Shown: positions 29,807 to 61,785 of the stretch, piece by piece
Layout of the letters: every line of letters begins with the position of its first letter
How positions within the stretch are numbered: position 1 is the stretch's first letter
Assembly: GCF_038967635.1 (NCBI RefSeq)
Contig: NZ_CP152413.1
Location: 124,001 to 188,000 of the forward strand
DNA length: 64,000 nt
Source: Bradyrhizobium sp. B124
GTDB lineage: Bacteria; Pseudomonadota; Alphaproteobacteria; Rhizobiales; Xanthobacteraceae
Direction: 5' to 3'
Made by a program: the position numbers and the translations under genes
The notes under the pieces: generated by a model
What the model was told of the DNA's origin: nothing
Databases searched by the model: none
What the model saw: only the letters and a program-made list of their open reading frames with translations

Positions 29807-31147
29807 ATGGCGAAATACGGAAAGAATCCCCGCGCGATCGGCGGGCTTGTGCGCGACGCCGAGGTGCATCGCGATGTCTATATCGATCCCGAGGTGTTCG
29901 AGCTCGAGATGGAGCATCTGTTTCCCAACAGCTGGATCTATGTCGGGCACGCCAGCCAGTTGTCGAAGGCCGGCGATTTCATCACCGCCAATATCGGCCG
30001 GCAGCCGGTGGTGGCCAGCCGCCATACCGACGGCTCGATCCACCTGTTCTACAATCGCTGTCCGCACAAGGGCGTCAAGATCGCCTCCGAGCCGTGCGGT
30101 AATACCGGAAAGTTCTTCCGCTGTCCCTATCATGCCTGGTCGTTCAAGACCGACGGCTCGCTGCTCGCGATCCCGCTGAAGAAGGGCTACGAGGGCACCG
30201 GCTTTACCGACACCCAGGCCAACGACGGGCTGTCGCGGATCAAGAACGTCGTCGTCTACCGGGATTTCATTTTCGCGCGCCTGAGCGAAAACGGCGTCGG
30301 CTTCGAAGACTATTTCGGTGAAAGCCTCTCGACCATCGACAACATGGTCGATCGTTCGCCGGAGGGGAAGCTGGCCGTCGAGGCCATGCCGATCCGCTAC
30401 ATGCACACCTGCAATTGGAAGATGCTGGTCGAGAACCAGACCGACACCTGCCATCCCATGGTGGCGCATGAGAGCTCGGCCGGCACCGCCATCAAGGTCT
30501 GGCAACGCGAACAGGGCGATTCCACCGAGAAGCCGATGGCGGTGCAGCTCTATGGGCCGTTCATGAGCCCGTACGAGTTCTACGAGCAGAGCGGCATCCG
30601 GATCTGGCCCAACGGCCACGGCCATACCGGCGTCGCCAATTCCATCCATTCGAACTATTCGGACGTTGAGGGCTATCTCGGCCAGATGGTCGCGGCCTAT
30701 GGCGAGAAGCGGGCCCACGAGATTCTCGGAGAGGTCCGGCACAACACCGTCTATTTCCCGAACATCATGGTCAAGGGCGCGGTGCAGATCCTGCGCAATT
30801 TCATCCCGATCGCGGTGGACAGGACGCTGGTGGAGAGCTGGGTCTATCGTCTGGTCGGCGCGCCCGACAAGCTCTACGAGCGTGCGCTGATGTACAATCG
30901 CTTCATCAACGCACCGACCTCGATCGTCGGGCACGACGATCTCGAAATGTATGAGCGGGCCCAGGAAGGGCTGAAGTCGAACGGCAATCAATGGGTCAAT
31001 CTGCGCCGGCTCTACGAGAGCGGCGAGGAGCCTGACGTCACCGCGGTGATCAACGGCACGTCGGAGCGCCAGATGCGGAATCAGTTTCATGCCTGGGCCA
31101 AATTCATGACCGTGGACATGGACCAGCCGGTCGAGGCCGCGGAATGA
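29807..31147 (+). CDS. Rieske non-heme iron oxygenase, alpha (catalytic) subunit
   Basis: 446 residues. The Rieske cluster motif is C-P-H (YNRCPHKG) and, 17 residues on, C-P-Y-H (FRCPYHAWSF). The mononuclear iron site begins NWKMLVENQTDTCHPMVAHE, supplying two His, with the bridging Asp in TDTCH. GAGG precedes the ATG. The four-base overlap with the beta-subunit gene shows coupling. Alpha-beta oxygenases of this class hydroxylate aromatic rings. In auxin-degrading bacteria a Rieske alpha/beta pair attacks the indole ring of indole-3-acetate; the neighbourhood of MarR, isatin-hydrolase-like and indolepyruvate-oxidoreductase-like genes makes an indole substrate plausible here, but that is inference. 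Confidence 0.92.
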   Translation: MAKYGKNPRAIGGLVRDAEVHRDVYIDPEVFELEMEHLFPNSWIYVGHASQLSKAGDFITANIGRQPVVASRHTDGSIHLFYNRCPHKGVKIASEPCGNTGKFFRCPYHAWSFKTDGSLLAIPLKKGYEGTGFTDTQANDGLSRIKNVVVYRDFIFARLSENGVGFEDYFGESLSTIDNMVDRSPEGKLAVEAMPIRYMHTCNWKMLVENQTDTCHPMVAHESSAGTAIKVWQREQGDSTEKPMAVQLYGPFMSPYEFYEQSGIRIWPNGHGHTGVANSIHSNYSDVEGYLGQMVAAYGEKRAHEILGEVRHNTVYFPNIMVKGAVQILRNFIPIAVDRTLVESWVYRLVGAPDKLYERALMYNRFINAPTSIVGHDDLEMYERAQEGLKSNGNQWVNLRRLYESGEEPDVTAVINGTSERQMRNQFHAWAKFMTVDMDQPVEAAE

Positions 31148-31620
31148 TCAGCGAAAAGACCATCACCGATTTCATCTATCGGGAAGCCGACCTCCTCGAC
31201 ACCATGCAATGGCAGGCGTGGCTCGACCTGTTCCACCCGGAAGGGCGCTACTGGATGCCGCTGGAATGGCAGCAGCAGGATCCGGTGCTGCAGCCGTCGC
31301 TGATGTACGAAGACCTGTTGCTGATGAAAGTGCGCATCGAGCGATTGGCCGGCGAACGCACCTTCAGCCAGAAGCCAAAGAGCCGCTGCCATCATCTGCT
31401 GCAGGCGCCGCAGATCCTCGCGTGCGACCCGGCGGCCGGCATATTCAAGGCGCGGACGTCCTTTCTCTACACCGAGACGCGCGGCGACACGCTGGAACGC
31501 TTTTCCGGATGGGCGTCGCACGATCTCGTTCAAGTCGGCGATGACCTCAAGATCAGGCTCAAGCGCATCGACCTCGTGAATTTCGACGCGCCGTTCGGCA
31601 ATATCCAGCTTTTCATGTGA
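31144..31620 (+). CDS. Ring-hydroxylating oxygenase, beta (small) subunit
   Basis: 158 residues with the NTF2-like fold of beta subunits: an N-terminal helix pair (ITDFIYREADLLDTMQWQAW), LDLFHPEGRYWMPLEW, and long strands around KARTSFLYTETRGDTLERFS and LKIRLKRIDLVNFD. The start overlaps the alpha-subunit stop by four bases. Beta subunits are mainly structural in an alpha3beta3 complex. Immediately downstream, the CoA ligase starts after seven bases. Confidence 0.9.
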   Translation: MISEKTITDFIYREADLLDTMQWQAWLDLFHPEGRYWMPLEWQQQDPVLQPSLMYEDLLLMKVRIERLAGERTFSQKPKSRCHHLLQAPQILACDPAAGIFKARTSFLYTETRGDTLERFSGWASHDLVQVGDDLKIRLKRIDLVNFDAPFGNIQLFM

Positions 31621-31627: not shown

Positions 31628-33244
31628 TTGACCACAGCGACCACCGTCTACGCCCGCTTTCGCGAGATCGCCCTCCGCCGGGGAGAAGCCTGCTTTCTCA
31701 ACGTGCTGCCCGAGACGGCCGATATCTACGGCATCGCCGCCGGCGAGATCTCGTATCGCGCCATGTTTGAGCGGGTGGAGCGCTGGCGCGCGGCGTTCGC
31801 TGGCCACGGCTATGGCAGAGGCCATCGGGTCGGGCTGCTGCTGCAGAACAGGCCGGTCTTCGTCGAGCTGTGGTTCGCCTTGAACGCGCTCGGTGTGTCC
31901 GTGGTGCCGATCAACCCCGATCTGCGGGTCAGCGAGCTCGAATACATCATCGCGCATTCCGAGATGAATGCCGCGTTCGTCCTCGCCAAACGACGCGACG
32001 AGGTCGAGACGGCGGCACGCCAGGCCGGCCGGCCCATTCCGGTTGCGACCGACAGCGGCGAGATTCCGGCCCCGTTCGGCGGCGCGCGGCCGGCGAACGC
32101 CGGCGACGGTTTGAGCGAATGCGCGCTGCTCTATACCTCGGGGACGACAGGCCAGCCCAAGGGCTGCGTGCTGACCAACACCTATTTCCTGTATTCCGGA
32201 GACTGGTATCGCGATGTCGGCGGATTGATCGATCTCAGGAACAATGGCGAGCGCATGATCACGCCGCTGCCGCTGTTTCACATGAACGCGATGGCGGTGT
32301 CGCTGATGGCGATGCTGTCGGTCGGCGGCAGCCTGACGATGCTCGATCGCTTCCATCCGCGAAGCTGGTGGAAATCGGTGCGCGACAGCCGGGCGACCTG
32401 CCTGCATTATCTCGGCGTCATGCCCTCGATGCTGATGAGCGCGCCGCCGACGCATGAAGATCGCGCGCACACCGTGCGGTTCGGCTTCGGCGCCGGCGTC
32501 GACAAGCTGCTCCACGCGCCGTTCGAGGAGCGCTTCGGTTTTCCGCTGCTCGAGGCCTGGGCGATGACCGAGACCGGAAGCGGCGGCGTGATCGCCGCCC
32601 ATGTCGAGCCGCGCAAGATCGGCACAAGCTGTTTTGGACGTCCGGCGCCCGAAGTCGACGTGCGGATCATCGACGACGGCGGCAACGATGCGCCGGTCGG
32701 AACGCCGGGCGAGCTGTTGGTGCGGCGGGCGGGGGATGATCCCCGCTACGGATTCTTCAGCGAGTACCTGAAGAACGAGGAGGCCACCGCCGAGGCCTGG
32801 AAGGACGGATGGCTGCATACCGGAGATATCGTGTCGCGCGATGCCGATGGCGATCTGCATTTCGTCGATCGCAAGAAGAACGTGATCCGCCGCTCCGGCG
32901 AGAACATCGCCGCGGTCGAGGTCGAATCCGTGCTCAACCGCCATCCGGCGATCCGGCAGGCCGCGGTGGCGGCGACACCGGATCAGGTGCGCGGCGACGA
33001 GGTCGCGGCTGTCATCATCGCGGAGCAGCCGGGGGCCGACCGCGCGCTCGCCGAGGACATCGTGCGCTGGAGCCTGGAGCAGATGGCCTATTACAAGGCG
33101 CCGGGCTGGATCTCGTTCGTCGAAAAACTCCCGCTGACCGCGACCGAGAAGATCCAGCGCGCCGGATTGAAGGAGTTCGTCGCGAAGCTGATGCGCGATG
33201 GCGCGTTCTTCGATCTTCGCGACCTCAAGCGGCGGCAGGAGTGA
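31628..33244 (+). CDS. AMP-forming acyl/aryl-CoA ligase
   Basis: 538 residues of the ANL superfamily. Motifs are LLYTSGTTGQPKGCVLTN (P-loop), AWAMTETG, DGWLHTGDIVSRD, DRKKNVIRRSGENIAAVE (hinge) and LTATEKIQRAGL with the catalytic Lys. The start is TTG at 31628 (TTG ACC ACA), seven bases after the beta-subunit stop; no ATG serves. The enzyme joins a carboxylate to CoA using ATP. Sequence character is that of crotonobetaine/cyclohexanecarboxylate-type ligases, but the substrate cannot be read. In the model proposed here it activates indole-3-acetate or its dioxygenated product for side-chain cleavage. Confidence 0.88.
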   Translation: MTTATTVYARFREIALRRGEACFLNVLPETADIYGIAAGEISYRAMFERVERWRAAFAGHGYGRGHRVGLLLQNRPVFVELWFALNALGVSVVPINPDLRVSELEYIIAHSEMNAAFVLAKRRDEVETAARQAGRPIPVATDSGEIPAPFGGARPANAGDGLSECALLYTSGTTGQPKGCVLTNTYFLYSGDWYRDVGGLIDLRNNGERMITPLPLFHMNAMAVSLMAMLSVGGSLTMLDRFHPRSWWKSVRDSRATCLHYLGVMPSMLMSAPPTHEDRAHTVRFGFGAGVDKLLHAPFEERFGFPLLEAWAMTETGSGGVIAAHVEPRKIGTSCFGRPAPEVDVRIIDDGGNDAPVGTPGELLVRRAGDDPRYGFFSEYLKNEEATAEAWKDGWLHTGDIVSRDADGDLHFVDRKKNVIRRSGENIAAVEVESVLNRHPAIRQAAVAATPDQVRGDEVAAVIIAEQPGADRALAEDIVRWSLEQMAYYKAPGWISFVEKLPLTATEKIQRAGLKEFVAKLMRDGAFFDLRDLKRRQE

Positions 33245-33246
33245 TC

Positions 33247-33975
33247 ATGAGCCAGACCCGCACCACACTCATCACCGGAGGCAATTCCGGAATCGGCGAG
33301 GCCTTGGCGAAGAAACTCGTCGGCGAGGGACAGCGGGTCGTCTCGGTCGGCCTCGAGAAGCCGGACTGGACGCATGATCTGCTGAGCGCCTATCGCGCGG
33401 ACTTGACCAGCATCGCGGAGACCAGGGCGATTGCACAGGAGATCCGCCGGGATCATGCGGTCGATTGCCTCGTGCACAATGCCGGAATCATCCTGCCGAA
33501 TCTGCTGGCCGACGCGAAGCCGGAAGACATCCTGACGCTGGCGCAGCTGCATCTGGGCGCACCGATGCTGCTGACCCAGGCGGCGATGGAAGGGATGCGT
33601 TCACGGAAGTTCGGGCGGATCGTGTTCGTGAGCTCGCGCGCCGCGATGGGCGCGGCCACGCGCTCGGCCTATTCGGCCACCAAGGCCGGCGTGCACGGCA
33701 TGGCGCGGACATGGGCGCTGGAGCTGGCATCGAGCGGGATCACGGTGAACGTGGTCGCACCGGGTCCGATCCTGACCGACAATTTCTGGGGCGTCATCCC
33801 GAAGGACTCCGAGCAGCAGGAGAAGATGGCACGCAACGTTCCGGTCGGGCGGCTCGGCTCACGCGAGGACGTGGCGCACGCGATCCGCTTCTTCCTCGAC
33901 GAGCGCTCCGACTTCGTGACCGGACAGGTGCTCTACGTCTGCGGCGGCACCAGCCTTGCCGGCCTCAGTCCATGA
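33247..33975 (+). CDS. Short-chain dehydrogenase/reductase
   Basis: 242 residues from ATG 33247, two bases after the ligase stop. It has the cofactor motif TGGNSGIGEALAKKL (TGxxxGIG), LVHNAGI (NAG), and catalytic Ser and Y-x-x-x-K (FVSSRAAMG, SAYSATKAG), ending GQVLYVCGGTSLAG. These are classical cytosolic NAD(P)-dependent alcohol/ketone oxidoreductases. It is the last gene of the Rieske operon and converges on the MarR gene with an 11-base gap. The substrate is probably a hydroxylated or keto intermediate of the same pathway. Confidence 0.9.
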   Translation: MSQTRTTLITGGNSGIGEALAKKLVGEGQRVVSVGLEKPDWTHDLLSAYRADLTSIAETRAIAQEIRRDHAVDCLVHNAGIILPNLLADAKPEDILTLAQLHLGAPMLLTQAAMEGMRSRKFGRIVFVSSRAAMGAATRSAYSATKAGVHGMARTWALELASSGITVNVVAPGPILTDNFWGVIPKDSEQQEKMARNVPVGRLGSREDVAHAIRFFLDERSDFVTGQVLYVCGGTSLAGLSP

Positions 33976-36528: not shown

Positions 36529-36538
36529 GACAAGGCTC

Positions 36539-45683: not shown

Positions 45684-46397
45684 TCAGTGTCCGCCGAGAT
45701 AGGCGGTGATTAGCCGGGGATCGTGGATCAGATCCTTGGCAGGGCCGGACTGCACGATCTCGCCGGTCTCCAGCACGTAACCATAGTCGGCGGTCTCGAG
45801 CGCGGCGCGGGCGTTCTGCTCGACCAGCAGGATGGACACTCCCAAATCGCGCAGTGACGCGATGGTGCGAAAGATCTCGCGCACGATCAGCGGTGCGAGG
45901 CCGAGGCTGGGTTCGTCGAGCATCAGCAGCGCGGGCTTGGCCATCAGCGCGCGCCCCAGCGCCAGCATCTGGCGCTCGCCGCCGGACAGCGTGCCTGCGG
46001 CCTGGCGTTGCCGCTCCTTCAGCCGGGGGAAGCGATCATAGACCTCGTCCAGCGTCTGTCGGACGCCGGAGCGGTCGCGCAGGCTGTAGGAGCCGAGCAG
46101 CAGGTTGTCGGCGACCGACATGTCCGAGAACAGCTCGCGCTTCTCCGGAACCAGGCAGAGCCTGCGCTCGACGCGATCCTCGACGGACATCTTACGGATA
46201 TCGCTGCCGCGGAATGCCATGCGGCCACGCGATCCGAGCAGCCCGATGGCGGCCATCAGCAGCGTGGTCTTGCCGGCGCCATTCGGGCCGATCACGGTGA
46301 CGATCTGCCCCTCGTCGACCGACAGCGAGACGTTGCGCACGGCTTCGACGTTGTCGTAGCAGACGGTCACGTCGGTCATGGAGAACATCTCGCTCAC
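45684..46397 (-). CDS. Branched-chain-type ABC transporter ATP-binding protein (LivF-like)
   Basis: 237 residues. Walker A GPNGAGKTT, signature LSGGERQML, Walker B LLMLDEPSLGLAP, and the LivF-specific PEKRELFSDMSVADNLLLG. It powers a high-affinity uptake system for amino acids or, in catabolic islands, aromatic acids. It overlaps the upstream LivM-LivG fusion gene by four bases and is the last gene of the minus-strand transport operon 45684-50397. Confidence 0.92.
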   Translation of the reverse strand: MSEMFSMTDVTVCYDNVEAVRNVSLSVDEGQIVTVIGPNGAGKTTLLMAAIGLLGSRGRMAFRGSDIRKMSVEDRVERRLCLVPEKRELFSDMSVADNLLLGSYSLRDRSGVRQTLDEVYDRFPRLKERQRQAAGTLSGGERQMLALGRALMAKPALLMLDEPSLGLAPLIVREIFRTIASLRDLGVSILLVEQNARAALETADYGYVLETGEIVQSGPAKDLIHDPRLITAYLGGH

Positions 46398-48163
46398 GCG
46401 ACGCCCCCGAGATAGGCCTCTTGAACCCGCTCATCGCTGCGGATCGCGCTTGGGACGCCCTCGCAAAGCTTGGAGCCGAAATCGAGCACCACGATGCGGT
46501 CGACCAGCGACATCACGAACTCCATGTCGTGCTCGACGATGAGGATGGTCAGGTGATCCGCGCGCAGCGCGCGGAGCAGCTCCGCGAGTCTAAGCTTTTC
46601 CTGGCGGCGCAGGCCCGCGGCCGGCTCGTCCAGCACCAGCAGGGCGGGATCAGCGGCGAGCGCGCGCGCGATCTCCAGGATGCGCTGGTTGCCAAGGGGA
46701 AGATTGCCGGCGAGCTCGAACGGCTTGTCGCCGAGCCCGACGCGCTCGAGCTGCATCAGCGCCTCGTGCCGGGCGCTGGCTTCCTCGCGCTGATTGAGGC
46801 GAAAGGCGCCGGCGAACAGGCCGGTGCGGGTTCGGCTGTAGGTGCCGAGCATGACGTTCTCCAGCAGGTTCATGCGCGGCCGCAGCTTCACATGCTGGAA
46901 GGTCCTGGCGACGCCGGCCTTGGCGATGCGGGATTGCGGATCACGCGTGATCAGGCGTCCCGCAAAGACGATTTCGCCCTTGTTGACCCGCAGCGCGCCG
47001 GTCAGGCAGTTGAACATCGTGCTCTTGCCGGCGCCGTTCGGACCGATGACCGCAACAATCTCGCCGGACCTCACCTCGAAGCTGACATTGTTGACCGCGA
47101 CGAGGCCGCCGAACCGGCGCTCGGCGCCATCAACCTTCAGAAGAAGCTCGCCCGGTACCGGCTGCGGACGGCGCGGCAGCGGCGGCGCCGGCTGCGGCCG
47201 CTCGCGCCTGGTCTTCGGCAGATAGCGGGCAATGGAAGGGACGATACCCTGCCGCGCCCATTGCAGGAACAGGATGAACAGCGCGGAGAAGGCAACGATC
47301 TCGAGCTGACCGGATGCGCCCTTGGCGATCAGCGGCAGATAGTCCTGCACGCTGTTCTTGAGCAGGGTCACGATGGCGGCGCCGACGACACCGCCAAGCA
47401 GGCTGCCCGCGCCGCCGACCATCGTCATCATCAGATACTCGATGCCCATGCTGGCATCGAACGGACCCGGGCTGATGAAGCGGCTCATATGCGCGTAAAG
47501 CCATCCGGAGAGCGAGGCCAGGAATGCCGCGATCACGAAGGTCACGAGCTTGATCCGGAAGGCGTTGATGCCGAGGCTCTCGACCAGCGTATTGCCGCCG
47601 CGCAGGGCCCGCATGGCGCGGCCGAGCCGCGAGTCCAGGAGATTGTAGCCAAGCAAGAGCACCAGGGCGACGATGCCCCAGATCAGATAATAGATCTGCG
47701 CGCTGGAGACGAGCGCGAACGAGCCAACAGTGATCGGCGGGATCGACGAGATGCCGTTGAAGCGGCCGAGCCCCTCGACATTGCCGAACAGGAAGCCGAT
47801 CGCAAGGCCCCATGCGACGGTCGAGAGCGAGAGGAAATGGCCCTGCAGGCGCAAGGTGACGACGCCGAGGATGGCTGCGACGCCGCAGGTCAGCGCTACC
47901 CCAAACAGCAGGCCGAGCCAGGGCGATTGCCCGTTCAGGGCAGAGACCCACGCCGTCGCATAGGCCGCGATGCCGACGAACGCAGCCTGTCCAAACGACA
48001 CGATGCCGCCGACGCCGGTGAGGAGCGCCAGGCCGATCGCGACCAGCGAATAGATGCCGATATAGTTCATCAGCGTGATGCTGAACGGGCTCAGGACGAG
48101 GGGCGCGAGTGCGAGGCACGCCAGTGCTGCTGCCGAAGCGAGCTGAACATGGAAGCGCGTCAT
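46394..48163 (-). CDS. Fused LivM permease and LivG ATPase
   Basis: 589 residues in one frame. Residues ~1-310 are a LivM-type permease with about nine hydrophobic segments and the GGIVSFGQAAFVGIAAYATA and GGAGSLLGGVVGAAIVTLLK signatures. A Pro/Arg-rich linker (TRRERPQPAPPLPRRPQPVP) follows, then residues ~345-589 are a LivG-type ATPase: GPNGAGKSTMFNCLTG, GVARTFQHVKL, LPLGNQRILEIARAL and LLVLDEPAAGLR. The signature is PLGNQ rather than LSGGQ, which is common in LivG. In most systems, including the second one here (61786-63533), these are separate proteins. The fusion is coupled by overlaps to genes on both sides. Confidence 0.92.
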   Translation of the reverse strand: MTRFHVQLASAAALACLALAPLVLSPFSITLMNYIGIYSLVAIGLALLTGVGGIVSFGQAAFVGIAAYATAWVSALNGQSPWLGLLFGVALTCGVAAILGVVTLRLQGHFLSLSTVAWGLAIGFLFGNVEGLGRFNGISSIPPITVGSFALVSSAQIYYLIWGIVALVLLLGYNLLDSRLGRAMRALRGGNTLVESLGINAFRIKLVTFVIAAFLASLSGWLYAHMSRFISPGPFDASMGIEYLMMTMVGGAGSLLGGVVGAAIVTLLKNSVQDYLPLIAKGASGQLEIVAFSALFILFLQWARQGIVPSIARYLPKTRRERPQPAPPLPRRPQPVPGELLLKVDGAERRFGGLVAVNNVSFEVRSGEIVAVIGPNGAGKSTMFNCLTGALRVNKGEIVFAGRLITRDPQSRIAKAGVARTFQHVKLRPRMNLLENVMLGTYSRTRTGLFAGAFRLNQREEASARHEALMQLERVGLGDKPFELAGNLPLGNQRILEIARALAADPALLVLDEPAAGLRRQEKLRLAELLRALRADHLTILIVEHDMEFVMSLVDRIVVLDFGSKLCEGVPSAIRSDERVQEAYLGGVA

Positions 48164-49203
48164 TCCTCGATCTCCTCCTCGGAATGCAGCGAGGCGAGGG
48201 ATCGCCAGATCAGAACCGGGATCAGCAGCGAGAACACGATCACGTCCTTCAAGGCACTGCTCTGGAAGGATGCGAAGCTCTCGAGGATGCCGACCCCGAC
48301 CGCGCCGATCGCGGCACCGGGATAGCTAGTCATGCCGCCGACGATGGCGCCGACGAACGCCTTGAGTCCGATCAGGAAGCCGGAATCGTAGAACACGGTA
48401 TTCACCGGCGCGATCAGGATGCCGGATACGCCGGCCATCAGCGAGCCCAGCAGGTAGGCGATGGTGCCGGCCCGCGCCGGCCGGATCCCCATCAGCCGCG
48501 AGCCGGTCCGGTTCACCGCCGTGGCGCGGAGCGATTTGCCGACCAGCGTGAAGTCAAAGAAGAGATAGAGGAGGCCGCTGAAGACCAGCGCTGCGATCAC
48601 GATCAGCATGGTCTGGCCCGAAATCAGGACGCCGGCGAACTCCGTCGAGAACGACGTCAGCGGTTCGGTCCGGACTCCCTCGGGGCCGAAGAACAGGAGG
48701 CCAAGGCCGACCAGCGCGAAATGCAGCGCCACGGAGACCGTCAGCAGCAGGAGCACGGTGCCGTCGGCGATCGGGCGGAAGACGATCCGGTCAAGCAGAG
48801 GGGCGATCGGCGTGATCAGCATCAGCGCGAGCACGAGCCGGACGGCGAGCGGCGGGTCCATCCGTATGGTGAGCCAGGCGATGCCGACCACTGCCAATGG
48901 AACGGCGAGATAGAACAGAAGCGCACGTGGCAGCAGGCGAAGCTCGCCATTGCGAATGAGCGAAATGATCTCGATCAGCGTCGCAAGGCACGCCAGCACC
49001 ACGACCAGCGCGCCGGTTCCCGGAAAGCGCTTGGCATCGAGGGCGGCAAGCGTCAGCGCGGTGAAGGCGGCGATGTCGCCGAACGGAATGAAGATGACCC
49101 GTGTCACCGTGAAGATGAGCACGGTTCCGATCGCGACCAGCGCGTAGACCGCGCCGGTGGCGATCCCGTCGATCGCAAGGATGGCCGCGATGTCGCTCGT
49201 CAT
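48160..49203 (-). CDS. Branched-chain-type ABC transporter permease (LivH-like)
   Basis: 347 residues with about eight to nine membrane segments; AILAIDGIATGAVYALVAIG at the start and AVNRTGSRLMGIRPARAGTI, the conserved cytoplasmic coupling loop, later on. GGMTSYPGAAIGAVGVGILE is typical of LivH. It forms a channel with LivM. It is 42 bases from the substrate-binding protein gene upstream and overlaps the LivM-LivG fusion gene downstream. Confidence 0.9.
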   Translation of the reverse strand: MTSDIAAILAIDGIATGAVYALVAIGTVLIFTVTRVIFIPFGDIAAFTALTLAALDAKRFPGTGALVVVLACLATLIEIISLIRNGELRLLPRALLFYLAVPLAVVGIAWLTIRMDPPLAVRLVLALMLITPIAPLLDRIVFRPIADGTVLLLLTVSVALHFALVGLGLLFFGPEGVRTEPLTSFSTEFAGVLISGQTMLIVIAALVFSGLLYLFFDFTLVGKSLRATAVNRTGSRLMGIRPARAGTIAYLLGSLMAGVSGILIAPVNTVFYDSGFLIGLKAFVGAIVGGMTSYPGAAIGAVGVGILESFASFQSSALKDVIVFSLLIPVLIWRSLASLHSEEEIEE

Positions 49204-49245
49204 TGAGACGCCGTTCCCCCGTTCTGACCGCCGGCCATCTTCCGC

Positions 49246-50397
49246 TTACGGCGCGTACTTCCAGGCGCCGCCGGTCAGGCGGACCACCACCAGCGAGCGC
49301 TCGTCGACGCCGGTGACTGCACCTGGTTTGAAGTTGTAGACGGCATGCACGCCGGGCAGTTCCTTGGTGCTGAGGATGGCGTCTCGCAGCGCCGTGCGGA
49401 ATTCCGTCGTCCCGGGCTTCGCGGTCTTGAGCGCCCGCTCGGCGGCGTTGGCAAAGATCAGCCAGGCATCGAAGGAGTAGGCGGAGAATCCGTCGGTGGT
49501 CGGAATGTTGTGGGTCTTCTGGTAGACCGCGCGGAAATCGAGCGCGATTTTCTTGGCGAAATGCTCGTCCGGAAGCTGTTCGGCCACGATCACGGGGCCG
49601 GCGGAGACCTGAATGCCCTCGGCGGCCTTGCCACCGACCGTGACGAAGTCCGGATTGACCAGCGCCACGGTGCCGTAGGTACTGCCCTTGAAGCCGCGCT
49701 CGGAGAGCGTGATGAGCGGCAACGCGCCTTGCGTGCCGGAGCCGCCGATCAGTACCGCGTCGGGACGTGCGGCCATGACCTTGAGGATCTGCGCGGTCAC
49801 CGAGGTATCGGTGCGGGCATAGCGCTCGTTGGTCTGGACCTTGATGTCGTCGATGGGCTCGGCGGCCTTGGCCCCGTTGTAGACGAGGTCGCCCCACGCA
49901 TCGGAGAAACCGATATAGCCGATGTTCTTCATGCCGTCGCGCTTCATCCGGTCGGCGACGATCTTGACCAGGAGCGAAGCCGGCTGCGGCACGGCGACGA
50001 CCCATTGCTCCGGCGAGTCCGGTAGCTTGCCGACCGGTGAGATCGAGATCATCGGCACTTTCAATTCGCTGGCGACGGCCGCCATGGCGATGGTCGAGGG
50101 GGTCGTCGCGGTGCCGATCAGGAGGTCGACCTTCTCCTCCTCGACGAGCTTGCGCGCGTTGCGCGTCGCGGCCGACGGATCGGAACCGTCGTCGAGCTGG
50201 ATCAGGCGGATGGTCTCGCCGTTGATCGTCTTCTTGTATTCATAGGCGGCATTGATGCCGCGCCCATAGGGGATGCCGATCGACGCGCCGTTGCCGCTCA
50301 GCGAGGTGACGAAGCCTATCGTGATGTCGGCTTGCGCAGCCGGTGCTGCGAAGACGCCGGCGACAAGCGCGAGTAAGCCCAGGGTTTTCTGCCGCAT
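49246..50397 (-). CDS. ABC transporter periplasmic substrate-binding protein (Leu/Ile/Val family), paralogue 1
   Basis: 383 residues from ATG 50397 (GGAGGA 8 bases upstream decides this start). A Sec signal peptide, MRQKTLGLLALVAGVFAAPA then AQA, precedes ITIGFVTSLSGNGASIGIPY. The two-lobed fold shows RLIQLDDGSDPSAATRNARK and DLLIGTATTPSTIAMAAVAS. It is clearly paralogous to the protein at 55234-56391 along its length. First gene of the minus-strand transport operon. Substrate probably an aromatic or indole acid given the setting. Confidence 0.9.
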   Translation of the reverse strand: MRQKTLGLLALVAGVFAAPAAQADITIGFVTSLSGNGASIGIPYGRGINAAYEYKKTINGETIRLIQLDDGSDPSAATRNARKLVEEEKVDLLIGTATTPSTIAMAAVASELKVPMISISPVGKLPDSPEQWVVAVPQPASLLVKIVADRMKRDGMKNIGYIGFSDAWGDLVYNGAKAAEPIDDIKVQTNERYARTDTSVTAQILKVMAARPDAVLIGGSGTQGALPLITLSERGFKGSTYGTVALVNPDFVTVGGKAAEGIQVSAGPVIVAEQLPDEHFAKKIALDFRAVYQKTHNIPTTDGFSAYSFDAWLIFANAAERALKTAKPGTTEFRTALRDAILSTKELPGVHAVYNFKPGAVTGVDERSLVVVRLTGGAWKYAP

Positions 50398-51024
50398 TTG
50401 CGTTGTCCTCCGTTGATGCTGGATACGAATGTCTGGAAGCCGGGCAGGAGCCCGAGCTGTGCACGAACCGATTGAAGGCATTGCTGCAGCGCCAGACGCC
50501 GGGCGCGGCGAGAGGGAAGTTCGCTTGGCCGGGGCGTCAGCGGCCATGGCGAGATGTGCCGCTCGAATAGCGGGCGGGTCTGCGGCAACCGGCGTGCATC
50601 TGTCGAAGCCAAAGAAGGCGAATGCCGCAGCCGCGATGCGCGACCGGCGATGTTGCTGCCGGCCATTCGGGCCCGACGATAGTCCACGCGATTGAGTTTC
50701 TCAAAATCGGTGCCCTGCAACATCATCGCCATGGCCACCGGCATGGACCGATGGTCGATTACTTAAAGCCTAAAGTATTCTCCGTGGCGCCGTCAACACG
50801 TGTCGCAGGGCTGCCAGAAAAAAATGTTGCTGCATACAATTCCGTCAGAGTGCGCCATTTCCTTCATCGCTTTGTCTTGGAAAACGGACCTTCTTGGTGC
50901 GACGAAGAGGCCCCCTTGGCGGGCCCCGCCATGCGCATTTGACGCGTCAATTAGTTTATGGTTGAAATATCTCTGTCGGCAGGCCGACAGCCGATGCTCC
51001 CGTCACCGTTTGAGGAGAAGGGCG
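50398..51024. promoter_or_regulatory. Divergent control region between transport and aldolase operons
   Basis: No gene is recognisable. Two structured sites stand out: ATTACTTAA-N4-TAAAGTATT at 50758-50779, an imperfect inverted repeat sharing the 9-mer AATACTTTA with 57192-57200, and the perfect palindrome TTGACGCGTCAA at 50939-50950. Either could bind a MarR or GntR regulator. The racemase-fold gene is preceded by GAGGAGAAGGG. Confidence 0.5.
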
Positions 51025-51807
51025 ATGCGCATCTTCTGGCAGAGTTTCGTCGATGCGAGCGTGAACGCGCCCTATATGGCGCGGCTGTCGGAGTACCTGA
51101 ACAAGATCGCCGCGCCCGGTACGACGGTTCACGTCGAGGGCATTTCACCGCCGGATCGGGAGTTCGGCCGTCTTGCCGAATTGCGCTGCGCCGTCCAGGC
51201 GATCGACAACGGCATCGCGGCCGAAGAGGCCGGATTCGATGCCTTCGTGATGGGCCATTTCCAGGATCCGGGACTTTATGAACTCCGCTCGACGCTCGAC
51301 ATTCCCGTGATCGGGACCGGCGAGGCGACGCTGCTCGCGGCCTCGCAACTCGGCCGGCGCCTCGGCCTCGTGACGCTCGATCCAGTCTTCGAGGTTTGGC
51401 ACTACGAGCAGGCCGAACGTTATGGCCTCGGTGATCGCGTCGTCCATGTGACCGGCCTCGGCTGCAAGCCGGAGGATTTCGCGGCTGCGTTCGCTGGCGA
51501 TCAGGCAGCCCACGCCCGGATGATCGAGGATTTTCTGGCCTGTGCCCTTCCGCTGGTGGAGCGCGGCGCCGACGTGGTGATCCCTGCCGGTGTGCTGCCG
51601 GGCCTCTTGATCGGGCGTGAGCACGGTCTGAAGGTCGGGCACGCGCCGGTCGTGAACTGCGCAGCGGTGGCGTTGAAGAGCGCCGAGATGTGGGTACAGC
51701 TCAGGCAGCTCAACGGCACCGAGCCGAGCCGCGGGCCGAGCTTCAGGCGTGCCAGTGCACTTGCACGTGACGATTTCCGGTCGATGCTCGCGCGCAACAA
51801 GCGTTAG
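51025..51807 (+). CDS. Asp/Glu/hydantoin racemase-fold protein lacking both catalytic cysteines
   Basis: 260 residues from ATG 51025, with GAGGAG upstream. The fold is recognisable: IFWQSFVDASVNAPYMARLS, GFDAFVMGHFQDPGLYELRS, IPVIGTGEATLLAASQLGRR and GADVVIPAGVLPGLLIG. In active members the first catalytic Cys precedes the DPG motif (A-C-F-x-D-P-G); here that place is His (GHF). The second Cys, in the GCAG motif, reads PAGV. Racemisation by the two-Cys mechanism is therefore unlikely. Related maleate isomerase and decarboxylase enzymes use other layouts. It is the first gene of the + strand operon leading to the thiolase-like gene. Confidence 0.75.
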   Translation: MRIFWQSFVDASVNAPYMARLSEYLNKIAAPGTTVHVEGISPPDREFGRLAELRCAVQAIDNGIAAEEAGFDAFVMGHFQDPGLYELRSTLDIPVIGTGEATLLAASQLGRRLGLVTLDPVFEVWHYEQAERYGLGDRVVHVTGLGCKPEDFAAAFAGDQAAHARMIEDFLACALPLVERGADVVIPAGVLPGLLIGREHGLKVGHAPVVNCAAVALKSAEMWVQLRQLNGTEPSRGPSFRRASALARDDFRSMLARNKR

Positions 51808-51841
51808 CGCCCGAACAGCCGACCAGCTTGGAGAGCCAGAT

Positions 51842-51946
51842 GTGACGAGACCCGAGAAGGTGACCCTGTTCGAATACGACTCGTGGCAGTATCGATATGA
51901 AGCTGACGGTGATCTGAGGCGGGCAGGCAAGGCAGGCGGCTGGTGA
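51842..51946 (+). CDS. Small protein (34 aa) translationally coupled to the thiolase-like gene
   Basis: GTG start at 51842 with GGAGAG 6 bases upstream. The product reads MTRPEKVTLFEYDSWQYRYE then ADGDLRRAGKAGGW. Its TGA overlaps the GTG start of the next gene (GTGA), a coupling pattern used throughout this island. I do not recognise the family. The good ribosome binding site, the coupling and the non-random sequence argue for a real gene, possibly a small subunit or assembly factor. Confidence 0.6.
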   Translation: MTRPEKVTLFEYDSWQYRYEADGDLRRAGKAGGW

Positions 51947-53121
51947 AAAATTCGCTGCGCACACCGTATGACGGCATCGTGATGGCGGCTCCCGTCACGA
52001 TCCCCTATGCGCGCTATTCCATCGAGAGCGCGCAATGGTGGATCGGCCGCGCGCTGAGCGCGCTGGTCGCGCGGGCGGGCATCAAGGCTTCCGACATCGA
52101 CGGTCTGTGCGTCTCCAGCTTCACCATGGGGACCGACAGCGGGATCGGACTGACGCAGCATTTCGGGCTGTGCGTCAGATGGCTGGACACGATCCCGCTC
52201 GGCGGTGCCAGCGCCATCGCGGCGTTGCGCAAGGCGGCGCGCGCAGTGCAGGCACACGATGCCGACATCGTGGCTTGCGTCGCCGGCGATACCAACCACG
52301 TCGATTCCTTCCGCCTCACGCTCGAGAATTTTTCGCGCTTCAACCAGGACGCGGTCTATCCCTATGGCGCAGGCGGCGCCAATGCGAGCTTCGCGCTGAT
52401 CGCGCGCAACTACATGCGGACGTATGGCGTCACGCGCGAGGACGTCGGCAGGATCGCGGTCGCCCAGCGCGCCAACGCGCTACGAAATCCGCATGCGCTG
52501 ATGAAGGCGCCGCTGACGATCGAGCAGTATCTGGCGGCCCGTCCCATTTCCGACCCCATTCACCTGTTCGATTGCGTCATGCCCTGCGCCGGTGCCGAGG
52601 CCTTCCTTGTGATGCGGGACGAGACCGCGGCATCGCTTGGCTTGCCGGCTGCACGATTGCTGTCGACGATCGAGCGGCACAACGCCTTCGCCGACGATCC
52701 GATGCAGGTGTGTGGCGGCTGGGCGATGGATGTCGGTGAACTCTACGCGATGGCCGGCGTGAAGCCTGACGATCTCGATATCGTCCAGACCTATGATGAC
52801 TATCCGGTCATCACGATGATGCAGTTCGAGGATCTCGGCTTCTGCAACAAGGGCGAGGGCGCGGCTTTCGTTCGTCAGCACGATCTGACGGTTGACGGCG
52901 ACTTTCCGCACAACACCTCGGGCGGCCAGCTCTCGGCAGGGCAGGCCGGCGCCGCCGGCGCTTATCTCGGGCTCGTCGAAGGATTGCGGCAGGTTCTGGG
53001 CGAAGCCGGTCCCACGCAGGTGAAGGATGCAAAGCTCGGTTTGGCCTCGGGCTTCGGGATGATCAACTATGACCGCGGCCTGGCCTCGGGCGCCGTGATC
53101 TTTGCAGGGCCCGCGCGATGA
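51943..53121 (+). CDS. Thiolase-fold enzyme without nucleophilic Cys, likely retro-aldolase (Ltp2-like)
   Basis: 392 residues, GTG start at 51943. The thiolase fold of the SCP-x/Ltp2 branch is visible: GIKASDIDGLCVSSF, YGVTREDVGRIAVAQRANAL, FDCVMPCAGAEAFLVM, DLDIVQTYDDYPVITMMQFE and FPHNTSGGQLSAGQAGAAGA. The active-site loop that normally reads C-A-S-G is GGASAIAAL, so the acylated Cys is missing. Ltp2-type steroid side-chain aldolases also lack it and need a DUF35 partner; the very next gene encodes a DUF35 protein. The enzyme probably cleaves a tertiary beta-hydroxyacyl-CoA to a ketone plus acyl-CoA. It overlaps its neighbours on both sides. Confidence 0.85.
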   Translation: MKNSLRTPYDGIVMAAPVTIPYARYSIESAQWWIGRALSALVARAGIKASDIDGLCVSSFTMGTDSGIGLTQHFGLCVRWLDTIPLGGASAIAALRKAARAVQAHDADIVACVAGDTNHVDSFRLTLENFSRFNQDAVYPYGAGGANASFALIARNYMRTYGVTREDVGRIAVAQRANALRNPHALMKAPLTIEQYLAARPISDPIHLFDCVMPCAGAEAFLVMRDETAASLGLPAARLLSTIERHNAFADDPMQVCGGWAMDVGELYAMAGVKPDDLDIVQTYDDYPVITMMQFEDLGFCNKGEGAAFVRQHDLTVDGDFPHNTSGGQLSAGQAGAAGAYLGLVEGLRQVLGEAGPTQVKDAKLGLASGFGMINYDRGLASGAVIFAGPAR

Positions 53122-54359
53122 TCGATCCGATCGAGCCACCCCGACGCAAGAACCCGCTGCTGCGGACGCGACTTCCCGCGTCGCCGCCGCGGGCGCGCAG
53201 CAGGACATCGCACGGGTTCACACGCGCCGCCGCCGAAGGACGCTTCATGCTGCAGCGCTGCGAGGTTTGCGGTGCCTTCGCCTATCCGGCACGCGAGGCG
53301 TGCCCCGCCTGCCTGTCGGCGGGTCTGGTGTTCGTCGACGCGCCGCGCCGCGGCGCGCTGCTGGCCGAAACGACGGCGCGGGTGCCGAGCGACGTCTATT
53401 TCCGCGAGCGGGCGCCCTGGCGGATTGGTCTCGTCAAGATGGACTGCGGCCCGACGATGGTGGCGCATCTGCATGCCGACTGCGTCGAAGGCGCGCCCGT
53501 CTTGATGTCGTTTCAGCTCGACAAGAGCGGTCAGGCGGTGGCCTTTGCCCGACCTGAGGGGGAGACTCGCAACATGGCAGACGACAGGCAGTGGCGGGAA
53601 ATGACGGCTGATCCGAAATTCCGGCGTGTGCTCGTGACCAACGGCCGCAGCCTGATCGGCCAAGAGGCCGTTGCAGCGCTGAAGGCCGCGGGCGCAAAGA
53701 CGGTGTTCGTGGGCGTTGCCGAAACATGGCGGCCGTTTGCCGGCGAGCAGCTGTTGCGCGGACAGCAGGGGATCGAACTCGTGACGCTCGACGCGGCCGA
53801 CGAAAAGTCGGTGACCGATCTTGCGGCCGACATCGGCGGCAAGGTCGATATCCTCGTCAACACGACGGAATATGTGCGGCCCGGCGGTCTCCTTGATCGC
53901 AGAGGCACGAGCATCGCGCGGGACGAGATCGACCAGGCTTATCTCGGCTTCATCAACCTCGCGCAGGCCTTTGGTCCCGCGATGCGGATGCGGGGTGCGG
54001 ACGGCGTCAACAGCAGTGCCGCCTGGGTCAATATCCTGTCGGTCCATGCGCTGGCGAACTGGCCCGCTTTCGGCGCCTATTCGGCATCGCAAGCCGCTTG
54101 CCTGTCGCTGTCGCATTGTCTTCGCGCGGAAATCAGGCCCGGCGGCGTCAAGGTGCTGAACCTGTTCACGGGGCCTGTCGACAACGAGTGGTTCCAGACG
54201 GTGCCGCCGCCCAAGGTCGCGCCGCGCGCCGTGGCACAGGCGATCGTGTCCGGGCTCAGAGGCGGACTCGAGGAGATGTATGTCGGAGACGTCGCCGAGG
54301 AAATCAGGCAGCGTCTTGCCGCCAATCCGAAGGCGCTGGAGCGCGAGCTCGACAGATAA
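53118..54359 (+). CDS. DUF35 zinc-ribbon/OB-fold protein fused to a short-chain dehydrogenase
   Basis: 413 residues. Residues ~25-155 are DUF35: a zinc ribbon (LQRCEVCGAFAYPAREACPAC, i.e. two C-x2-C pairs ~11 residues apart) and an OB fold (GALLAETTARVP, PWRIGLVKMDCGPTMVAHLH). Residues ~170-400 are an SDR: VLVTNGRSLIGQEAVAALKA, DILVNTTEYVRPG, SVHALANWPAFGAYSASQAA. The SDR half lacks the usual Gly-rich TGxxxGIG and has Y-S-A-S-Q where Y-x-x-x-K is expected, so it may be non-catalytic. DUF35 proteins partner thiolase-fold aldolases and bind acyl-CoA. The start overlaps the thiolase-like stop by four bases, strongly suggesting a complex. Confidence 0.85.
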   Translation: MIDPIEPPRRKNPLLRTRLPASPPRARSRTSHGFTRAAAEGRFMLQRCEVCGAFAYPAREACPACLSAGLVFVDAPRRGALLAETTARVPSDVYFRERAPWRIGLVKMDCGPTMVAHLHADCVEGAPVLMSFQLDKSGQAVAFARPEGETRNMADDRQWREMTADPKFRRVLVTNGRSLIGQEAVAALKAAGAKTVFVGVAETWRPFAGEQLLRGQQGIELVTLDAADEKSVTDLAADIGGKVDILVNTTEYVRPGGLLDRRGTSIARDEIDQAYLGFINLAQAFGPAMRMRGADGVNSSAAWVNILSVHALANWPAFGAYSASQAACLSLSHCLRAEIRPGGVKVLNLFTGPVDNEWFQTVPPPKVAPRAVAQAIVSGLRGGLEEMYVGDVAEEIRQRLAANPKALERELDR

Positions 54360-54393
54360 GATCAGGATTTCAACCAAGCGGGAGGACGTGACG

Positions 54394-55176
54394 ATGCAAA
54401 GCAAGAATCTCCTGGAGCTCGCAGGTGCGGTTTCCTCCGGCGCGGTGCGCGTCGTCGATCTGACCTTCACGCTCAGTCCGGATTTTCCGGTCATCGTGCT
54501 GCCGCCGGAGTTTGGCCAGGCAGCTCCGGTCCGGATCCAGGAGATTTCACGCTATGACGGTCGCGGTCCGGCCTGGTACTGGAACAACGTGACCTTCGGC
54601 GAGCACACCGGCACGCATTTCGACGCGCCGATTCACTGGTTCACCGGCAAGGATCTGCCGAACAATGCCGTCGATACGATGCCTGCGAAGGACATGATCG
54701 CTCCGGCGTGCGTCATCGACTGCTCGGCCGGCGCAGCGCAGGACCCGGATTTCCTGCTGACCGTTCCGCTCGTCGAAGCCTGGGAGGCGAAGCACGGGCG
54801 GATTCCCGAGCGGAACTGGGTTCTGCTGCGCACCGATTGGTCGAAGAAGGGCTGGCGCGACTACGCCAACCTCAGGGACGACGGCGCGCACACGCCGGGC
54901 CCGAACGCGGCTGTCATGAAATGGCTGGTGGAGGAGCGCGGCATCATCGGCTTCGGCACCGAGACGATCGGCACCGACGCGGGGCAGGCCGGCCATTTCG
55001 AGCCGCCTTATCCGGCGCATCACTTCCTGCACGGCGCCGGCCGGTATGGCCTTCAGTGTCTTTGCAATCTCGATCAGCTTCCTGCCACCGGCGCCGTCAT
55101 TGTCGCTTCGCCCTTGAAGATCCAGAACGGTTCCGGCAGCCCGCTGCGCGTGATCGCACTGGTTTCGGCGAACTGA
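54394..55176 (+). CDS. Cyclase-family metal hydrolase, isatin-hydrolase / kynurenine-formamidase type
   Basis: 260 residues from ATG 54394, with GGGAGGA upstream. The metal motif H-T-G-T-H-F-D-A-P-I-H matches HXGTHXDXPXH exactly. Other family blocks are VVDLTFTLSPDFPV, WVLLRTDWSKKGW, GFGTETIGTDAGQAG and PYPAHHFLHGAGRYGLQCL. The family includes isatin hydrolase (isatin to isatinate, Mn-dependent) and kynurenine formamidase. It follows the aldolase/DUF35 genes in the same operon, where isatin would be the expected product from an indole-acetate route. Amidohydrolases acting on other cyclic amides remain possible. Confidence 0.88.
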   Translation: MQSKNLLELAGAVSSGAVRVVDLTFTLSPDFPVIVLPPEFGQAAPVRIQEISRYDGRGPAWYWNNVTFGEHTGTHFDAPIHWFTGKDLPNNAVDTMPAKDMIAPACVIDCSAGAAQDPDFLLTVPLVEAWEAKHGRIPERNWVLLRTDWSKKGWRDYANLRDDGAHTPGPNAAVMKWLVEERGIIGFGTETIGTDAGQAGHFEPPYPAHHFLHGAGRYGLQCLCNLDQLPATGAVIVASPLKIQNGSGSPLRVIALVSAN

Positions 55177-55233: not shown

Positions 55234-56391
55234 ATGATCTCGATGAAGACCCTGCTGGCTTCGGCCGTGCTGCTTGTTGCCTTTCCGCAGGTCGGGCAGG
55301 CGGAGATCCTAGTCGGATTCGTCACCGGCCTCAGCGGGCCGGTGTCGTCGATCGGGATCCCGAACGCAAAGGGACTGGCGGCCGGTGAAGCCTATATCGG
55401 CGAAGTCGGCGGTGAGAAGCTCCGCGTCATCCAACTCGACGACGCTTCCGATCCGACGGCATCGGCGCGCAATGCGCGCAAGCTCGTCGAGCAGGAGAAG
55501 GTCGACATTCTGATCGGCACGTCGGGCGCGCCGCAGACGCTGGCAATGGCGACTGCCGCAATCGAGATGAAAACGCCGATGATCGCGGTCTCGCCGATCG
55601 CGCCGGTGCCGCCGGGCGATGGCGGGCCCTGGGTCGTGCAGACGCCGCAACCGACACCGCTTCTGGTTCAGGGCATCGTCGACCACATGAAGGCGCGCGG
55701 GTTGAAGACCGTCGCGTTCATCGGCTTCTCCGATGCCTTCGGCGACCTCATGTACGATTCGTTGTCGCAAAGCGCCAAGGCGGCCGACATCAAGGTGATC
55801 GCCAACGAACGATACGCTAGGTCGGATTCATCGGTGACCGCCCAGGTGCTGCGCGCGTTGGCGGCCCACCCCGACGCCATCATGCTCGGCGGCACGGGAA
55901 CGCCGGGTGCGCTGCCGGTGATCGCCTTGTCGGAGCGTGGATACAAGGGACCGCTCTACGGCAACCACGGACTCATCAGCGCCGATTTCCTGCGGCTGGC
56001 CGGCAAGGCCGCCAACGGAATCATCTGCCCGACCGGGCCGGTGACCGCGGCCGAGCAGCTGCCCGCCAGCAATCCGATCCAGAAGGTTGCCTTGGCGTTC
56101 CGCGCGGCCTTCGAGAAGGCGAATGGCGAGGCGCCGACCGACTCGTTCTCATCCTATTCCTTCGACGGCTGGCTGGTGTTCGTCGATGCGGCCAAGCGCG
56201 CGCTGGCGACCGGCGCCAAGCCGGGCTCGCCGGAATTTCGCACCGCGCTTCGCGAGGCGCTGTTCACCACCAAGGAACTGGCCGGGACGCAGGGCGTCTA
56301 CTCCTACACGCCGGCGGATCGCCACGGCGTCGATGCGCGTGCGCGGATACTGGTTCAGATCGAGGACGGGAAGTACAAGCTGCTGCCCTGA
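55234..56391 (+). CDS. ABC transporter periplasmic substrate-binding protein, paralogue 2
   Basis: 385 residues with Sec signal peptide MISMKTLLASAVLLVAFPQV then GQA. Its mature sequence aligns with the protein at 49246-50397 (GFVTGLSGPVSSIGIP, RVIQLDDASDPTASARNARK, DILIGTSGAPQTLAMATAAI). It lies 57 bases after the cyclase gene and has no permease genes directly behind it, so it probably docks onto the LivH/LivMG complex encoded at 45684-49203. Two binding proteins would widen the range of ligands taken up. Confidence 0.9.
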   Translation: MISMKTLLASAVLLVAFPQVGQAEILVGFVTGLSGPVSSIGIPNAKGLAAGEAYIGEVGGEKLRVIQLDDASDPTASARNARKLVEQEKVDILIGTSGAPQTLAMATAAIEMKTPMIAVSPIAPVPPGDGGPWVVQTPQPTPLLVQGIVDHMKARGLKTVAFIGFSDAFGDLMYDSLSQSAKAADIKVIANERYARSDSSVTAQVLRALAAHPDAIMLGGTGTPGALPVIALSERGYKGPLYGNHGLISADFLRLAGKAANGIICPTGPVTAAEQLPASNPIQKVALAFRAAFEKANGEAPTDSFSSYSFDGWLVFVDAAKRALATGAKPGSPEFRTALREALFTTKELAGTQGVYSYTPADRHGVDARARILVQIEDGKYKLLP

Positions 56392-56478: not shown

Positions 56479-56985
56479 TCACGGCTTCTGCATCGCATCC
56501 CTGACGGCGCCCTTGAGCTCGTCGAGCTCGCTGGTCAATCCATCGAGTCGAGCAGCCGGGAATCCCGCCAGCAGCTCGGCCAGCCATGAGCCATGGCTCT
56601 TGGCCATGCGCCGGAAGGCCTTGCGGCCCTCGACCGTCATGCAAACGATCTGCACGCGCCGATCCAGATTGGAGGGTGTGCGGGTGATGTAGCCGTCCTC
56701 GACCAGACGATCGACGATGGGTGTGAGATTTCCGGCGGAGACCATCAGGCGCTTCGGCAGCTCTCCCAGCACCAATCCACTCGGCTCCCGGTCAAGCTGG
56801 GCCAGGACGTCGAAGCGCGGCATCGTGAAATCGAATTCCTCGCGGAACCGGCGTCGCAGCTCGCCCTCGATCAGGGTCGTGCAGGCAAGCAGCCGAAGCC
56901 AAAGCCGTGTCTGAGCCCGGTACTCGGCCTCCTGATCGACCCCGCTCTTGGGCGAAACAGGCGGGGACTCCTTCGCGACTGCCAA
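56479..56985 (-). CDS. MarR-family transcriptional regulator
   Basis: 168 residues: EYRAQTRLWLRLLACTTLIE, FTMPRFDVLAQLDREPSGLV, LGELPKRLMVSAGNLTPIVD (recognition helix), TPSNLDRRVQIVCMTVEGRK (wing). It resembles the MarR at 34469-34966 (shared RLWL-LL and FDVLAQLDR). These features match MarR regulators reported for auxin-degradation loci in other plant-associated bacteria, to my knowledge. It is divergent from the operon starting at 57395 and convergent with the binding-protein gene. Likely ligands are indole-3-acetate or a pathway intermediate. Confidence 0.9.
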   Translation of the reverse strand: MAVAKESPPVSPKSGVDQEAEYRAQTRLWLRLLACTTLIEGELRRRFREEFDFTMPRFDVLAQLDREPSGLVLGELPKRLMVSAGNLTPIVDRLVEDGYITRTPSNLDRRVQIVCMTVEGRKAFRRMAKSHGSWLAELLAGFPAARLDGLTSELDELKGAVRDAMQKP

Positions 56986-58183: not shown

Positions 58184-58197
58184 GCGGGAGACAAGAG

Positions 58198-58992: not shown

Positions 58993-59008
58993 TCATGGGA
59001 GCAGCGAC

Positions 59009-59398
59009 GTGAGCCGGAACTACGACGCGATCAAGGCGCATTATGCCGGATCGGATCGCGGTGATCTTGCCGCCATGATGGCGCCGATCACCACCGAGAC
59101 CAGGTGGACCGAGATGGCGGGTTTTCCTTATGCGGGAACCTATGTCGGCCAGGACGCCATCATCGCCGGTGTGTTCAAGCGCATTGGTGAGGAGTGGACC
59201 GGCTACACGTTCACGCTCGAGAGATTGATCGACGGCGGCACGACGATCGTCGGGATCGGAACCTATTCCGGGCACTACAAGCCGACCGGCAAGGCAATGC
59301 GCGCTCGTGTCGTGCATGTCTGGGACGTGGATGAGGGGCGGGTGGTGCGCTTCGAGCAGTTCACCGACACAAGGCTCGTCGCTGACGCGATGAGGTAA
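59009..59398 (+). CDS. SnoaL/NTF2-like small protein
   Basis: 129 residues, GTG start with GGGAG about 9 bases upstream. NYDAIKAHYAGSDRGDLAAM, AGFPYAGTYVGQDAIIAGVF, ARVVHVWDVDEGRVVRFEQF and TDTRLVADAM follow the SnoaL/ketosteroid-isomerase-like fold. Members act as isomerases, cyclases or dehydratases, or only bind ligands. It is the last gene of the SDR-MoaF operon. Confidence 0.85.
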   Translation: MSRNYDAIKAHYAGSDRGDLAAMMAPITTETRWTEMAGFPYAGTYVGQDAIIAGVFKRIGEEWTGYTFTLERLIDGGTTIVGIGTYSGHYKPTGKAMRARVVHVWDVDEGRVVRFEQFTDTRLVADAMR

Positions 59399-59480
59399 CG
59401 GGGCGACCGCGTGCGCCGGGGCTGGGAGGCATCGGTCACTCGGCGCACGCGGGCTTCGGGCACACACATTGCTCGTTTGT

Positions 59481-60912: not shown

Positions 60913-60915
60913 ACA

Positions 60916-61779: not shown

Positions 61780-61785
61780 GCTGAC

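Follow-up and report, generated by a model that had tools for sequence, protein, structure and literature searches.

The window analysed here is a stretch of 64,000 nt from Bradyrhizobium sp. B124, whose genome is a single contig of 9.17 Mb. Three consecutive genes retain our attention. The first, iadG (51943..53121, +), codes for a thiolase-fold protein that lacks the cysteine of thiolases and is predicted to be a retro-aldolase. The second, iadH (53118..54359, +), codes for an N-terminal DUF35 protein (Cys4 zinc ribbon C48/C51/C62/C65, then an OB fold) fused to a domain with the fold of short-chain dehydrogenases/reductases (SDR). The third, iadI, codes for an enzyme resembling isatin hydrolase A; its open reading frame begins at 54280, with a likely ATG start at 54394 (54394..55176, +). 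These are genes of the iad set for auxin degradation, and both the genes and the pathway are already known. What is put forward here is a mechanistic reassignment, which sequence comparison supports well: IadG and its DUF35 partner would cut the side chain of auxin by a retro-aldol reaction. To our knowledge, the way this two-carbon chain is cut en route to anthranilate has been a question without an answer since the metabolite work of the 1990s.

The iadG and iadH reading frames overlap by 4 bp (ATGA, 53118-53121), and 34 bp separate the end of iadH at 54359 from the start of iadI. An earlier note on this DNA had extended translational coupling to all three genes; overlap is seen in the first pair only, and iadI is not coupled in this way. 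The note had also taken the interval 51025..55176 to comprise three genes. All three lie within it, yet it opens with a fourth, coding for an Asp/Glu/hydantoin-racemase-family protein (51025..51807, +), often found near iadGHI in relatives.

The iad genes of the window and their conservation

The published set, with the gene numbering of PMC10374108, runs from iadC to iadK2 as reductase, Rieske large subunit, Rieske small subunit, CoA synthase, 'ketothiolase', 'alcohol dehydrogenase', 'kynurenine formamidase', dehydrogenase and binding protein (PMC12633357, a 2025 preprint). This order is present in an Aromatoleum locus (L087), and the C-to-J order recurs in four further loci (L093, L099, L100, L101). 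The gene set of Variovorax paradoxus (iadC-K2) is also that of the window, where, by contrast, it is split into two clusters: iadCDEFJ at 28.8-34.0 kb, 18-23 kb upstream of iadGHI, and iadGHI with a binding protein at 51.9-56.4 kb. The former begins with an iadC-like reductase (Fer2 and NAD-binding; 28838..29788, +), followed by the Rieske oxygenase subunits iadD (alpha; 29807..31147, +) and iadE (beta; 31144..31620, +). Then come iadF, for an AMP-forming acyl-CoA ligase that presumably supplies IadG with its CoA thioester (31628..33244, +), and iadJ, an SDR with intact YSATK and TGGNSGIG motifs (33226..33975, likely start ATG 33247, +). The best solved match of IadD is 9o71, the structure of Variovorax IadDE (PMC12633357), at 561 bits; 7yls follows at 557 and the next protein at 144. 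Downstream of iadI, an iadK2-like solute-binding protein (55234..56391, +) finds its best solved match in 7ylt (478 bits, next 315), which we infer to be Variovorax IadK2. By predicted function the window thus holds iadCDE, iadFGHIJ and a binding protein, and because gene order and the 9o71 match agree with the published set we name its genes accordingly. Few of the 120 matches listed by either protein search carry names, and none is named Variovorax; orthology to the Variovorax genes therefore rests on the 9o71 match, on gene order and on named Achromobacter matches of IadH. Fragmentary iad clusters have been described beside iac operons in Sphingomonas (PMC11630574).

The grouping of the three genes is not a matter of chance. 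Among 74 related loci (80, minus 6 cut off within 2.3 kb downstream) IadH comes directly after IadG in 73, and IadI is next in 72. A sample of 397 genomes spread evenly over the order of the host, its own genome included, has IadG (E <=1e-130) in 22 genomes and IadH (E <=1e-60) in the same 22; the corresponding Fisher p value, ~1e-36, should be taken as a guide only, as these genomes are related to one another. The two genes share a contig and a strand, within ~1.3 kb, in all of these genomes save one (21/22), the exception (G386) having them on different contigs. IadI (E <=1e-80) was found in 49 genomes, among them all 22 carriers of IadG, and it adjoins an IadH in 21 of these; G132 is the exception, and in G140 the IadH next to it is a second copy, located on a different contig. 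The other 27 genomes carry an IadI-like gene but no IadG, which shows that genes resembling isatin hydrolase also occur outside the module. Among 20 numbered stretches used for comparison, L107 and L108 are probably the same records as L044 and L026; L090 and L091 look nearly alike. One record, titled Frankia sp. RB7 (L025), has an IadG 93% identical to that of the window within a Bradyrhizobium gene order, and is probably mislabelled or contaminated.

A thiolase fold without its cysteine and a dehydrogenase fold without its catalytic residues

Where thiolases have CASG, the loop of IadG reads LGGASA. In alignments its G88 falls on the nucleophilic cysteine of 7yvy, a Pyrococcus thiolase, and on Gly89 in the aldolase CtSal, in keeping with the cysteine-less thiolase fold announced by the earlier note. 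A catalytic cysteine in this loop, which would have spoken against that claim, was looked for in 81 IadG rows and seen in none: Gly88 occupies the position in every row, and the GG of the loop is kept in 20/20 rows from the numbered genomes (two of them probably repeats). Equally invariant over the 81 rows are Tyr284, which corresponds to the base of Sal and Ltp2 in their YDxF/Y motif, Asp286, and Gln334, which stands in place of the histidine of the thiolase GHP motif. The motif around the base, YDDY (Y284-D285-D286-Y287), is constant in IadG and absent from both Sal and Ltp2. A predicted model of IadG, taken alone, gave Sal and Ltp2 structures as its best Foldseek matches, which answers in part the comparison with Ltp2-ChsH2 that the note had proposed for the IadG-IadH pair.

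By sequence and by model the best match is CtSal, which with the DUF35 protein CtShy forms the bile-acid side-chain aldolase of Comamonas testosteroni (PDB 9MYR). The likeness extends to the thiolase fold, the glycine in place of cysteine, the base tyrosine, both glutamines (Q329 and Q334 in IadG) and a DUF35 partner with its zinc ribbon, encoded beside IadG and with which it would form a complex. Several differences stand out. CtSal has YDCY, and its essential Cys304 is replaced by Asp286 in all IadG rows, so that we do not file IadG as a Sal; the CtSal partner is fused to a MaoC hydratase, that of IadG to a degenerate SDR; and CtSal releases an aldehyde, whereas the presumed substrate of IadG is a small tertiary-alcohol oxindole, yielding a ketone. 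The hydroxyl group in the substrate of Ltp2 is tertiary as well. The TcLtp2/ChsH2 DUF35 complex (PDB 6OK1) shares the fold and the base tyrosine, and Ltp2 cleaves a beta-hydroxyacyl-CoA with its hydroxyl on ring carbon C17 (PMC12329534). Its YDHF motif and second catalytic tyrosine are not those of IadG, His296 and Tyr344 corresponding to Asp286 and Gly336, and for this reason IadG is not filed as an Ltp2 either. The benzoylsuccinyl-CoA thiolase BbsAB, too, has a DUF35 subunit (PMC12329534). BbsAB and SCP2-type thiolases share the fold of IadG; the nucleophile loop of BbsB is CSAG (placed by HMMER two residues off G88), that of IadG has no cysteine. In a tree of 31 rows, the PDB rows of which comprise aligned stretches only, the 19 IadG rows group together (100/98), with BbsB and the Pyrococcus thiolase falling outside their clade. 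The clade appears as sister to Ltp2 (92/89) on long branches, and we do not claim that relationship.

The partner proved less simple than the plain DUF35 protein of the earlier note. Pfam models, all above their cut-offs, place zf-ChsH2 and OB_ChsH2_C at residues 37-133 of IadH, and at residues 170-361 an SDR domain that the note had missed; the VIA-align listing for the whole protein consisted of SDR chains. We gathered 297 IadH rows by similarity (74 from the loci, 222 from protein clusters and that of the window; 294 distinct), leaving out 18 of 240 protein matches shorter than 395 residues and, among 75 locus rows, one whose length fell outside 380-480 residues. The four zinc-ribbon cysteines are kept in 296 of the 297. 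None of the 294 distinct rows has the catalytic Tyr/Lys pair of SDRs, and none has the NAD glycine motif TGxxxGxG; the pair is likewise absent from all 18 IadH of the numbered loci (one probably a repeat). A role of IadH as a dehydrogenase was rejected on these grounds, as was, for want of a nucleophilic cysteine and of the GHP histidine, a role of IadG as a ketothiolase (EC 2.3.1.16). We propose that the SDR half of IadH may have no catalytic role, its fold being retained for structural reasons or for docking. One locus, from Sulfitobacter sp. EhC04 (L071), has two IadG copies (6004-8414 and 9989-11589). One of them belongs to a C-D-E-F-G-H-I run; after the other come a DUF35 protein that stands alone, with no SDR part, and a TRAP transporter.

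These features bear directly on the published scheme, in which IadF activates the substrate, then IadG as a ketothiolase and IadH as an alcohol dehydrogenase remove the acetyl side chain reductively, giving a compound C8H7NO2. The scheme is backed by genetics: in Variovorax, knock-out of iadF, iadG, iadH or iadI lowered anthranilate and raised C10H9NO4, and C8H7NO2 accumulated without IadI (PMC12633357). The reaction types, by contrast, were taken by the authors from annotation, and the main text of the preprint makes no mention of DUF35. With neither the nucleophile of a thiolase in IadG nor the residues of a dehydrogenase in IadH, in any row, we regard the scheme as very unlikely in this form.

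The third protein is easier to place. Its HTGTHFDAPIH fits the HXGTHXDXPXH motif exactly, as had been stated, and it shares 163 of 255 residues (64%, 403 bits) with isatin hydrolase A (PDB 5nna). The seven residues named for the mechanism of that enzyme (PMC6117287), His69, His73, Asp75, His79, Asp193, His207 and Gln219 in LaIHA numbering, are all kept in IadI, at positions 71, 75, 77, 81, 195, 209 and 221 (anchor F68); as they fit this numbering, we take 5NNA to be the Labrenzia enzyme. No clear difference was found between IadI and isatin hydrolase A. Kynurenine formamidase, as an alternative, was rejected, since the NCBIfam arylformamidase model, whose cut-off is 223 bits, gave only 30.5.

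Cutting the auxin side chain

The proposal that emerges is that IadG, paired with the DUF35 part of IadH, would act as a thiolase-fold retro-aldolase splitting dioxindole-acetyl-CoA into isatin and acetyl-CoA in a redox-neutral step, after which IadI would convert isatin to isatinate. We give this a probability of roughly three in four. Upstream, the Variovorax work proposes that IadCDE and IadJ turn indole-3-acetate into dioxindole-3-acetate, and infers that IadF makes its CoA thioester (PMC12633357). Tyr284 would then deprotonate the tertiary 3-hydroxyl group, and the C3-CH2 bond would break to leave isatin and the enolate of acetyl-CoA, which would be protonated in the pocket formed by Asp286, Gln329 and Gln334. 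The oxidation level would not change, and attack by a thiol would be neither needed nor possible. Indeed, since the tertiary beta-hydroxyl of dioxindole-3-acetyl-CoA cannot become a beta-ketoacyl-CoA, thiolysis has no handle. Isatin opened by IadI would give isatinate, on the way to anthranilate. As for the proton donor, an ordinary aspartate such as Asp286, at the position of Cys304 in Sal, is unlikely; water, or water bound to a glutamine, could serve.

The earlier note had already suggested this chemistry, and homology, active-site residues, the model of IadG and co-occurrence all speak for it. So does orthology with the iad genes, since auxin breakdown in Variovorax requires them genetically. 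The note had seen neither the degenerate SDR domain nor the identity of the genes with iadG, iadH and iadI, with their published knock-outs and a differing scheme. Among the matches listed from the open-licence PMC literature, judged by titles and abstract openings, no earlier retro-aldol proposal for the auxin side chain was found; two of the listings covered 20 of 1,113 and 20 of 187 matches.

The chief point that weighs against the proposal is the C8H7NO2 reported in Variovorax, a reduced intermediate (PMC12633357). Isatin backing up when IadI is missing, and reduced to dioxindole by other enzymes of the cell, would explain it; C8H5NO2 is not mentioned in the text of that preprint. IadG and IadH might also make an aldolase that releases something other than isatin first: the SDR half could still bind a cofactor, by an unusual mode, and deliver dioxindole, or the CoA substrate could be another C10H9NO4 isomer. 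We hold this to be unlikely: no IadH row has the Tyr/Lys pair or the glycine motif, the second IadG of Sulfitobacter is followed by a DUF35 protein without any SDR, and Variovorax cultures were found to contain isatin and isatinate as well as dioxindole (PMC9613470, 2022).

Possible other front ends, neighbouring genes and what the module would mean

A different substrate must also be considered, for the three genes could act on another oxindole- or aryl-acetyl-CoA rather than on auxin, in the host strain or in relatives without IadD. Of 34 carrier genomes hand-picked from the 80 loci, 13 have an IadD match at 1e-40 or better, 12 of these being clear orthologues (at least 61% identity), so that a clear orthologue is lacking in 22. 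In 20 loci from these 22 carriers, a luciferase-like monooxygenase cluster lies nearby in 9 and a flavin-reductase cluster in 9, as checked with Pfam in L060, L069 and partly L083. Such carriers lend some weight to a non-auxin substrate; against it, the host has iadCDEFJ close by and one IadD orthologue in its genome, and an isatin-hydrolase-like gene follows IadH in all but two of the 74 loci. We consider this alternative highly improbable. For the loci without iadD two readings offer themselves, a module coupled to different front ends or a varying substrate, and the monooxygenase with its flavin reductase is a possible alternative front end. Monooxygenase and flavin reductase genes together occupy 15521-17175 in L060 and 18232-19832 in L069, and a monooxygenase gene lies at 15803-16894 in L083. 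A small gene immediately precedes iadG in, among others, L042 (9546-9974), L056 (9550-9981), L060 (9545-9976) and L069 (9522-9983). Its copies from 11 of the 20 loci fall into a single cluster, and Pfam classes those of L042 and L069 as OsmC-like; the window has no room for it. The chromosome record of Bradyrhizobium barranii subsp. apii 1S5 (L038) has iadGHI and no IadD match at 1e-40. A salicylyl-CoA 5-hydroxylase family protein, above cut-off, is encoded near iadGHI in L102 (239-2545), and the one match over that cut-off in the genome of the host (C1:8986928-8989228) is far from the window.

Around the two clusters, a divergent MarR-family regulator, recognized by its family match (56479..56985, -), has no close solved relative (best 80 bits). 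ABC transporter genes named by reading their sequence (LivF-, fused LivM-LivG- and LivH-like), with a solute-binding protein (45684..50400, -), adjoin iadGHI in Bradyrhizobium relatives. Near iadJ, an IorB/IorA-like 2-oxoacid oxidoreductase (34963-38698, -) might, speculatively, take isatinate, a 2-oxoacid, to anthranilate or anthraniloyl-CoA. The genes at 40314-42822, coding for a gentisate/5-aminosalicylate-dioxygenase-like cupin (319 and 273 bits, under both cut-offs), an FAH-family hydrolase and a 4HBT thioesterase, could serve further down the pathway to open the ring of a hydroxylated anthranilate. Further away are a second operon-like run with SDR, MoaF-like, SnoaL-like, binding-protein and ABC transporter genes (57398-63533), C39-peptidase ABC transporter, HlyD and asparagine-synthase genes with the look of peptide export (3643-10020), and TubC_N-thioesterase, AMP-binding/PP-binding and acyl-CoA dehydrogenase genes (22317-26593).

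In a broader perspective, and with odds we put a shade above even, IadG may found a third kind of thiolase-fold aldolase, marked by YDDY and acting on an aromatic (oxindole) substrate, with a DUF35-pseudo-dehydrogenase as its obligate partner. F-G-H-I would then be a portable remover of the auxin side chain, served by varied oxygenase front ends. The genetics of 2025 assigned reaction types by annotation; a retro-aldol reaction whose base (Tyr284) and partner domain are both specified lends itself to direct testing. If it is true, the printed roles of two genes, IadG as a ketothiolase and IadH as an alcohol dehydrogenase, would need correction, and isatin, not dioxindole, would be the predicted intermediate on the path. 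The dehydrogenase activity of IadH would drop out of schemes for engineering root bacteria, and thiolase-fold aldolases would extend beyond the world of steroids.

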